This document shows, one piece after another, positions 43,989 through 46,046 of a stretch of DNA of 46,046 nucleotides (its first letter is position 1; each line of letters starts with the position of its first letter). The notes beneath the pieces were generated by a model, which was given only the letters and a program-made list of their open reading frames with translations, did not search any database and was not told the DNA's origin. The stretch comes from Acidaminococcales bacterium. Its GTDB lineage: Bacteria > Bacillota > Negativicutes > Acidaminococcales > JAISLQ01. The position numbers and the translations under genes are program-made. Location of the stretch: assembly GCA_031290885.1 (NCBI GenBank), contig JAISLQ010000051.1, forward strand, positions 1-46,046, in the 5' to 3' direction.

Positions 43989-45455
43989 TTACAGGCCGGA
44001 GGGCATATCGGCGCAAAACTTTGCGGCAAGCCGTTCCTGCCAGTCGCCGATGGGGCGCAGCCGCCCAAAGAAAAACCGCAGCATTTCAGGTTCTTCTTCA
44101 AATTCCAATCCGCCGATGCAGGCACGGTTTTTATACAGCCAGGACAGGCGGTCGGCGACAAATTTCATCTGCGAATAGGTAAATACCCGTTTGGGAATGG
44201 CCAGGCGCACTAATTCCATGTCGGATACTTTTTCCGTGCCGTCGGGATTTCTTTGCTCGGACAAGGTGCCGCGTTCCATGCCGCGAATGCCGCCGACGAT
44301 GTAGATAGCTGCGGCCAGGGCGCCGGCCGGGTATTCTTCCTGCCGGATATGGCCAACGAACCTTGAAGCGTCCACATGGCAGCCCAGGCCGCCGAACGGG
44401 GTAACGACCGGCACGCCGTTTTCCGTGAGCATTTTGCCCAAAGCCTCGACGAAAATCGGCGTTTGGTTTATCACGTTAAAATCAAGCGTTTCTTTTATCC
44501 CCACGGCAATGGCCTCCATTTCGCGCACCGACATGCCGCCGTAGGTAAGAAATCCTTCGTAAAGGGTAACCAGGGGACGCAGTTTTTTATAATACTCGGC
44601 ATTGGACGTGATTATGCCGCCGCCGCGCGCGCAGCCCAGCTTGCGGGCGGAAAAATAAGATATGTCCATGAGCGAGGCGATTTCCCGCACTATGTCTTTA
44701 AGCGGCCGGTTGGCGCAGGACGCTTCCCGGGCCTTGATAAAGTAGAGGTTGTCGGCGAGCAGGCTGGCGTCAAGGATCAGGAGTATCCCCCGCGAACGGC
44801 AGAAGGCCGAGACTTCGCGCATGTTCGCCAAAGACACCGGCTGCCCCCCTATAAGGTTGGTGCCGGATTCAATGCGCACGAAGGCGACATTGCCAACCCC
44901 GGCTTTTTCCACGGCGGCTTTGAGCAAGTCCAGGTCGAAATTGCCTTTGAAAGGGTCGCCGCTGACAGCGTTGGTCGCGCCGGGGGAGCAGACTTCGACG
45001 ACTTTTCCGCCCAAGCGGGTTATGTGCGCTTTGGTTGTGGTAAAATGATAGTTCATTATCGTATATTTGCCTTCGGCAACGAAAGCGTTGGCGATAATAT
45101 TTTCGCAGGCCCGGCCCTGATGCGCCGGCAGGAAATATTTTGTGCCGAATACATCGCTTAACGCGGCAGACAGGCGGAAAAATGTTTCCGACCCGGCGTA
45201 GCTGTCGTCAGCCGTAAGCATGGCCGCATACTGCGCGTCGCTCATGGCGTTGACGCCGCTGTCGGTCAGCATGTCCAGAAAAACGTCGCGGTTTTTCAGG
45301 AGAAAGGTGTTGTTGCCGGCTTCCTGCACGGCGCGCAGCCGCTCGTTGACCGGCAGAAGGTTGACGCGCTGCACCATGCGGACTTTGTGCATTTCCAGCG
45401 GGATGTTTTCGCCGGAAAAAAAGGTTACTTTTTCTTCGCTTTGATCGTTTGGCAT
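43989..45455 (-). CDS. PLP-dependent beta-eliminating lyase, tyrosine phenol-lyase-like
   Basis: The tyrosine phenol-lyase/tryptophanase family splits Tyr or Trp to phenol or indole, pyruvate and ammonia, reversibly for Tyr. In this 488-residue product the PLP lysine is K272 in SARKLG, the Asp contacting the pyridine nitrogen is D229 in LILDASL, and R115 lies in AHQGRACEN. Two positions that separate the enzymes point to the phenol-lyase: Arg395 in MERG, where tryptophanase has VEIG, and Phe461 in LRFF, where tryptophanase has RHF. The residue before the PLP lysine is Arg rather than the usual Lys, so this is a divergent member. AAGGAGG precedes the ATG. Expression is governed by a T-box leader. 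Family assignment is firm, substrate less so. Confidence 0.8.
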   Translation of the reverse strand: MPNDQSEEKVTFFSGENIPLEMHKVRMVQRVNLLPVNERLRAVQEAGNNTFLLKNRDVFLDMLTDSGVNAMSDAQYAAMLTADDSYAGSETFFRLSAALSDVFGTKYFLPAHQGRACENIIANAFVAEGKYTIMNYHFTTTKAHITRLGGKVVEVCSPGATNAVSGDPFKGNFDLDLLKAAVEKAGVGNVAFVRIESGTNLIGGQPVSLANMREVSAFCRSRGILLILDASLLADNLYFIKAREASCANRPLKDIVREIASLMDISYFSARKLGCARGGGIITSNAEYYKKLRPLVTLYEGFLTYGGMSVREMEAIAVGIKETLDFNVINQTPIFVEALGKMLTENGVPVVTPFGGLGCHVDASRFVGHIRQEEYPAGALAAAIYIVGGIRGMERGTLSEQRNPDGTEKVSDMELVRLAIPKRVFTYSQMKFVADRLSWLYKNRACIGGLEFEEEPEMLRFFFGRLRPIGDWQERLAAKFCADMPSGL

Positions 45456-45520
45456 TGGTTTTTCCTCCTTATTTCAGTAAATCAGTCTCAAGGAAATCCC
45501 CGGGGCGGATGCTTTCCTTC

Positions 45521-45577
45521 AAAACAAAAAGCCCCCGCGCCCTGAACAAAACAGTCAATGTTCAAGGGACGAAAGCT
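45521..45577 (-). terminator. Regulated terminator of the T-box leader
   Basis: On the minus strand AGCTTTCGTCCC...TGAACA pairs with TGTTCA...GGGCGCGGGGGCT (45577 down to 45530), followed by a T-rich tract (TTTTTGTTTT, 45530-45521). Its 5' arm lies just after the T-box core and would be exclusive with the antiterminator. Confidence 0.8.
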
Positions 45578-45791
45578 AAAACTCCCGCGGTACCACCCTT
45601 ATTACAGCCGAAAAACCCGGCTGTCGCTCGGCGCGCCTTGTAACGGCGGCGATCCGGGCGCCGCTTGGACGCGGCGCCGGCTCAGGAGTGTATTTACACG
45701 CGCCTAACGGGCCCTGCTCGCACCTGCCGCAGGGTCTCTGGCAACCGGCATCGGCATCGTCTTTCTCTCCATCAAAGCCTGTATGTTGTTT
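45521..45791 (-). promoter_or_regulatory. T-box riboswitch (tyrosine specifier UAC) upstream of the lyase gene
   Basis: Read on the minus strand, the leader contains all main T-box parts. Stem I is closed by GGCT...GGAG pairing with CTCC...AGCC. An apical AGAGA-CCCTGC...GCAGGG element carries GGTG. The internal loop strand GTAAATACA holds the specifier TAC (45690-45692) followed by A. The T-box core AGGGTGGTACCGCG lies at 45586-45599; its UGGU would pair with a tRNA ending in ACCA, as tRNA-Tyr does. An intrinsic terminator follows. Uncharged tRNA should stabilise the antiterminator and allow transcription. The class is certain from the core motif; the codon is read by eye from the loop geometry. 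Confidence 0.88.
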
Positions 45792-45797
45792 GTTGAA

Positions 45798-45827
45798 ATT
45801 CTATCACGGGCAACCCCGCTTTGTCAA
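45798..45827 (-). promoter_or_regulatory. Promoter of the T-box leader and lyase gene
   Basis: On the minus strand TTGACA (complement of 45822-45827) is 18 bases from TAGAAT (complement of 45798-45803). The start would be near 45791, at the beginning of the T-box fold. Confidence 0.75.
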
Positions 45828-46046
45828 CTTTATAACTATTTTGCCAAGGGTTGCTTGGGGAAAAATTTCCTTGCGGCGGACCGCAAAACCTAAAATCATG
45901 CCGGGCGCGGCGGCGTCTGCCGCGCTCCCGCCGCCGAAGTTAAATCGCCTTCGCGCAAACGCGATATAAAAACTTTCTCGCGCACGCGGGAAAAGCGCAA
46001 TCTCCAAAACCGGCAAATTGCAAAAACCACTTGACAAGCGCCGGGC
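45828..46046. other. Right-end region without a supported gene
   Basis: No gene is supported. A TTGACA at 46031-46036 on the plus strand could be the -35 of a promoter continuing past the window. A minus-strand open frame at 45804-46037 has no ribosome site, runs through the lyase promoter and is not accepted. Confidence 0.4.

Follow-up and report, generated by a model that had tools for sequence, protein, structure and literature searches.

A tyrosine-type T-box leader ahead of a gene for a divergent relative of tyrosine phenol-lyase in an Acidaminococcales bacterium

In the 46,046-nucleotide contig of an Acidaminococcales bacterium analysed here (the window), a gene for a beta-eliminating lyase is preceded by a leader (45784-45562) that covariance and sequence analysis confirm as a real tyrosine-type T-box. 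Domain, structure and residue comparisons, together with a phylogenetic tree, indicate that the gene does not encode an ordinary tyrosine phenol-lyase (TPL) and that it is a member of a separate sister clade with altered cofactor-site residues. The reading that we favour, with a probability of about 0.6, is that the tyrosine T-box drives a gene standing by itself, whose product is an anabolic TPL relative and would make tyrosine from phenol.

The T-box leader of the lyase gene

The promoter, the leader and the gene are arranged as follows:

45798..45827, minus strand: sigma-70-type promoter TTGACA-N18-TAGAAT, matching 11 of 12 consensus positions
45562..45784, minus strand: T-box leader, from stem I to the antiterminator (RF00230)
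45690..45692, minus strand: specifier codon UAC (Tyr), from covariance alignment and sequence, with A next after the codon
45587..45600, minus strand: T-box core AGGGUGGUACCGCG with the UGGU bulge, predicted to pair with the ACCA end of tRNA-Tyr (discriminator A)
45521..45576, minus strand: intrinsic terminator, its stem overlapping the 3' half of the antiterminator, with a U-run at 45530-45521
45461..45470, minus strand: ribosome-binding site AAGGAGG, a short distance 5' of the ATG
43989..45455, minus strand: beta-eliminating lyase of 488 amino acids, assigned to an R217L/K256R sister clade of TPL from PF01212, structures, residues and tree

The entire Rfam covariance model RF00230 (positions 1-219) matches the leader, scoring 95.9 bits against a gathering threshold of 93 (E 6e-20). 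The terminator hairpin (45576-45531), which is followed by UUUUUGUUUU, has a predicted fold of -23.3 kcal/mol and overlaps the antiterminator (-12.7 kcal/mol), the two structures being mutually exclusive. The MFE fold of the complete leader is unexceptional (z -1.5), and for this reason the case for a T-box depends on the covariance model. A first-pass annotation of this DNA had placed a T-box core, a regulated terminator and a promoter ahead of the lyase gene, within 43989-45827; all three are recovered by our searches, the interval is right and every element lies on the minus strand. The UAC specifier read at that time falls in the specifier column of the covariance alignment. It also agrees with the single tRNA-Tyr found in the genome, whose GUA anticodon fits the UAC specifier and whose discriminator A fits the UGGU bulge. 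Just 5' of the promoter, on the minus strand, a terminator-like hairpin (45869-45888) possibly ends the preceding transcription unit.

A search with RF00230 finds ten T-boxes in this genome. The other nine, whose targets were assigned by their specifiers and by the translated gene starts, precede Thr, Phe, Ser, Leu, Ala-type, Trp (two), Ilv and Ile genes, and no second tyrosine specifier is seen among the ten. Two tryptophan loci of the same genome show, respectively, a divergent T-box (L010:1501-1838; 47.9 bits) with an apparent UGG specifier before trpF, and a trpE with its own Trp T-box (L007).

In general, T-boxes control genes for aminoacyl-tRNA synthetases, amino-acid biosynthesis and transport (PMC3766115). 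The tyrosine T-box leaders known from the tyrosine operon of B. anthracis and B. cereus share with the window leader the RF00230 architecture, the UAC specifier and the antiterminator/terminator switch; the window leader differs in its target, a TPL-like enzyme. Phenylalanine 4-hydroxylase, a protein unrelated to the clade enzyme, takes phenylalanine as its starting compound and requires oxygen. A T-box governs it in the B. cereus group (PMC2494555), which is a precedent for such control of a tyrosine-yielding enzyme that lies outside the TyrA route. The pairing of a T-box with a TPL-like gene is absent from two T-box surveys (PMC2494555, PMC3766115). The first-pass annotation knew of no described case, and no earlier description of it was found in the literature searched here.

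The lyase and its relatives

The 488-residue product carries a PF01212 (Beta_elim_lyase) domain (E 8e-50; 170 bits against a cut-off of 27) and passes the broad NCBIfam subfamily model PRK13238 (570.5 against 285), while it falls below the cut-off of the TPL equivalog TIGR02618 (432 against 720.7). Its best PDB matches, by sequence and by fold, are TPL structures. Specifically, an AlphaFold2 model of the product (pLDDT 85) has the fold of TPL (EC 4.1.99.2; C. freundii, E. herbicola), with TM of 0.85-0.91 at 40-41% identity. Relatives sharing 57-91% identity occur in Bacillota, Bacteroidales, Actinobacteria, Deltaproteobacteria, one spirochaete and one Puniceicoccales MAG, and their records, judged by title, come largely from animal guts. 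In the tree, the clade sequences form one monophyletic group that is sister to canonical TPL (SH-aLRT 100 and 99; stem 1.13).

In the numbering of C. freundii TPL, which is used throughout, the clade has in common with TPL the catalytic Y71, D214, K257 and R404, and retains R100, N185, T124, M379, R381, F448 and F449 as well. Five positions, namely T124, M288, M379, R381 and F448, separate TPL from tryptophanase (PMC5805759); the clade keeps four of them and has F at 288, as in tryptophanase, where TPL has M. The product also shares with tryptophanase (EC 4.1.99.1) the fold and the passing of the PRK13238 cut-off, whereas the equivalents of tryptophanase D137, I/V396 and H463 (E. coli numbering, PMC5805759) are missing, with T124, R381 and F448 at the aligned positions. 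What distinguishes the clade from TPL, besides F288, is the combination of R217L and K256R, found in 95 of 95 clade sequences, while R217 and K256 are present in all 17 canonical TPLs and all 20 tryptophanases sampled; E69D, G101A and H343L are additional marks, and L289 is likewise invariant. R217, K256 and E69 are located close to the cofactor or to the site that binds the monovalent cation. The loss of R217 could mean an altered chemistry, and it is a speculation that the changes at 217 and 256 tune the reaction toward synthesis. The kept ring-binding residues, in turn, favour phenol as the probable substrate. In the literature searched, nothing relevant was found on Arg217 or on rumen TPL. 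The original label of a TPL-family gene calls for refinement: it holds for the fold and for the Beta_elim_lyase domain, while the separate clade, the lost R217 and K256 and the score below the TIGR02618 cut-off set the enzyme apart from an ordinary TPL.

Recurrence of the pairing and the tyrosine pathway

For canonical TPL, a catabolic role and activation through TyrR are described in Erwinia and Citrobacter (PMC1173090), whereas the clade gene has a tyrosine T-box leader. A survey of related genomes, which had been proposed together with the initial observation, extends this leader-gene pair well beyond the window: a T-box lies directly 5' of 26 of the 46 Bacillota clade genes having upstream sequence, across at least 12 GTDB families, and its specifier is UAC in 25 cases and UGC in one. 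An identical search of 20 loci for canonical TPL or tryptophanase detects no T-box. About eight changes of the T-box label are needed on the tree, which indicates that the pairing has been repeatedly gained or lost. The remaining 20 of the 46 genes have no T-box (L080-L085, L087-L090, L092-L094, L099, L101, L122-L126), and at L118 a divergent Lrp/AsnC-type regulator adjoins a Bacillota clade gene of this T-box-less kind. No T-box was seen ahead of the non-Bacillota clade genes examined, which for those of Bacteroidales is the outcome of a pattern scan.

Three genomes (G333, G171 and G256) contain, in addition to a T-box-controlled clade copy, a canonical TPL with R217 and K256 that is 66-76% identical to the C. 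freundii enzyme; a fourth (G199) has a canonical TPL and a clade copy without T-box. These two-copy genomes fit with one degradative and one anabolic enzyme per cell. Across the 26 loci compared, no neighbour genes are conserved beyond near relatives and the clade gene stands alone; in Bacteroidales, no conserved neighbour gives a functional clue, and no phenol-metabolism genes are conserved beside the clade gene.

Some individual leaders depart from the common pattern. The T-box reading UGC (Cys) belongs to genome G321 (L096:2985-3205) and its congener G296 (L116) reads UAC, so the former is either a one-base specifier change or a sequencing error. A second T-box, apparently with a CAC (His) specifier, lies just 3' of one clade gene that has its own tyrosine T-box (L086:3211-3540). 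In the sister species of the window genome, the T-box (L016:1651-1871) scores 51.8 bits; its core reads AGGGCGCUGCUGCG in place of AGGGUGGUACCGCG, with loss of the UGGU bulge, the specifier and the terminator are kept and the -35/-10 promoter match is lost. This may reflect decay to a non-functional leader, altered regulation or an assembly error.

With regard to tyrosine supply, no TyrA (prephenate dehydrogenase, PF02153) above the cut-off is found in either genome of the window's genus, which are 95% (window genome) and 75% (sister species) complete. Neither of them shows IorA (indolepyruvate oxidoreductase), a potential route from arylacetates to aromatic amino acids. A 22-bit PDH_N match in the window genome was rejected as TyrA, as it corresponds to IlvC behind another T-box. 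PheA is present in both genomes, and the T-box-controlled trpE and trpF of the window genome indicate that the genus uses chorismate; of the two genomes, only that of the sister species yields a chorismate synthase (AroC). Since TyrA and IorA are absent and the Phe and Trp genes are kept, the clade enzyme is the only tyrosine-forming candidate recognised in the genus. In the order as a whole, TyrA is found in 56 of 63 genomes. The genomes are mostly MAGs, which makes gene absences provisional.

In a wider sample of 398 Bacillota genomes, TyrA is missing from 17 of 40 clade genomes and from 74 of 358 others (p 0.003, uncorrected for kinship; p 0.03 when stratified by family), where the clade count takes relatives of at least 59% identity and leaves five at 50-53%, with the signature residues, among the others. 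TyrA is retained in the other 23 clade genomes, and 14 of the 26 T-box-bearing clade genomes are without it. The pattern of PheA present and TyrA absent is not enriched (2 of 40 clade genomes against about 13 of 358 others). In particular, TyrA loss mostly accompanies loss of the whole Phe/Tyr branch: most TyrA-lacking clade genomes are also without PheA, and many are without AroC or have IorA. It follows from these losses and from the presence of IorA that the enzyme is not simply a TyrA replacement; many TyrA-lacking clade genomes may get tyrosine by other means, and the clade enzyme looks like a phenol-salvage route in both prototrophs and auxotrophs. Eleven rumen and gut Bacteroidales genomes with a clade gene (L030, L032, L034-L038, L041, L042, L048, L061) have neither TyrA nor PheA, and 10 of them have chorismate synthase.

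Proposed role and competing explanations

We infer the switching of the T-box, the direction of the enzyme, phenol as its substrate and the source of this phenol as follows. When tRNA-Tyr is charged, transcription would terminate in the leader. Uncharged tRNA-Tyr would instead be bound at two points, the GUA anticodon pairing with UAC and the terminal ACCA with the UGGU bulge, whereupon the antiterminator would form and the lyase gene would be transcribed. The enzyme would then convert phenol, pyruvate and ammonia into tyrosine or, in an alternative reaction, phenol and serine by beta-replacement, using phenol taken from the gut environment. The TPL reaction is chemically reversible, a property on which the industrial production of tyrosine and DOPA is based; ammonia and phenol are available in gut contents. 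No phenol source was identified in the analysis, and no phenol-to-tyrosine route assigned to the normal metabolism of any organism was found in the literature searched. The direction of tyrosine synthesis, which the first-pass annotation had suggested, emerges as the best-supported reading, one that we infer from the conservation of the leader, the hole in the pathway, the division between paralogues and the distinct clade. A degradative enzyme induced by tyrosine starvation would deepen that starvation, which makes synthesis the most economical reading. On a broader scale, there is about an even chance that this horizontally scattered and widespread clade is a dedicated, prephenate-independent tyrosine synthase that replaces TyrA in some lineages.

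A different reaction could also supply tyrosine under the same T-box logic, starting, for example, from a substituted phenol or from another beta-substituted amino acid, with phenol not being the donor. The invariant L217, R256, A101 and L289 and the tryptophanase-like F288, which separate the clade from TPL, together with a TIGR02618 score of 432 against 720.7, lend this idea a small but appreciable probability; nevertheless, T124, R381 and F448, which bind the ring of phenol, are kept (PMC5805759). It seems unlikely that we are dealing with an ordinary degradative TPL or tryptophanase-like enzyme, whose T-box would report starvation in general, so that pyruvate and ammonia are set free. The known members of the family are indeed lyases and TyrA is kept in over half of the clade genomes sampled, but breaking down tyrosine during tyrosine starvation would be self-defeating, canonical TPL and tryptophanase loci have no T-box, a separate canonical TPL is kept in three genomes and 25 of the 26 specifiers read UAC.

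The occurrence of the clade gene in TyrA-positive genomes and in gut habitats (as given by record titles), where phenol is expected, would also agree with an enzyme that makes a tyrosine-sparing product or that detoxifies phenol into tyrosine, the supply of tyrosine being a by-product. We regard this as rather improbable; for detoxification, a phenol sensor would be expected rather than a sensor of tRNA-Tyr, and no conserved phenol-metabolism genes adjoin the clade gene. The degraded core of the sister species, in turn, could suggest that the window leader is a decaying or fortuitous T-box that came with neighbouring DNA and lost its function, which is very improbable when the window core, specifier, terminator, promoter and ribosome-binding site are all intact and the pairing recurs widely.

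TPL has so far been viewed as a catabolic, phenol-producing enzyme, and its reverse reaction as a tool for industry. With a conserved tyrosine T-box in front of a separate clade, this reverse reaction would acquire a role in nature; the pairing would also predict a chorismate-independent route to tyrosine. This raises the direct question of whether phenol rescues tyrosine auxotrophs that bear the clade gene. In addition, many gut-metagenome annotations of 'tryptophanase' or 'tyrosine phenol-lyase', now taken as indole or phenol producers, would be corrected. If true, gut bacteria would recycle the phenol released by tyrosine-degrading neighbours into tyrosine.
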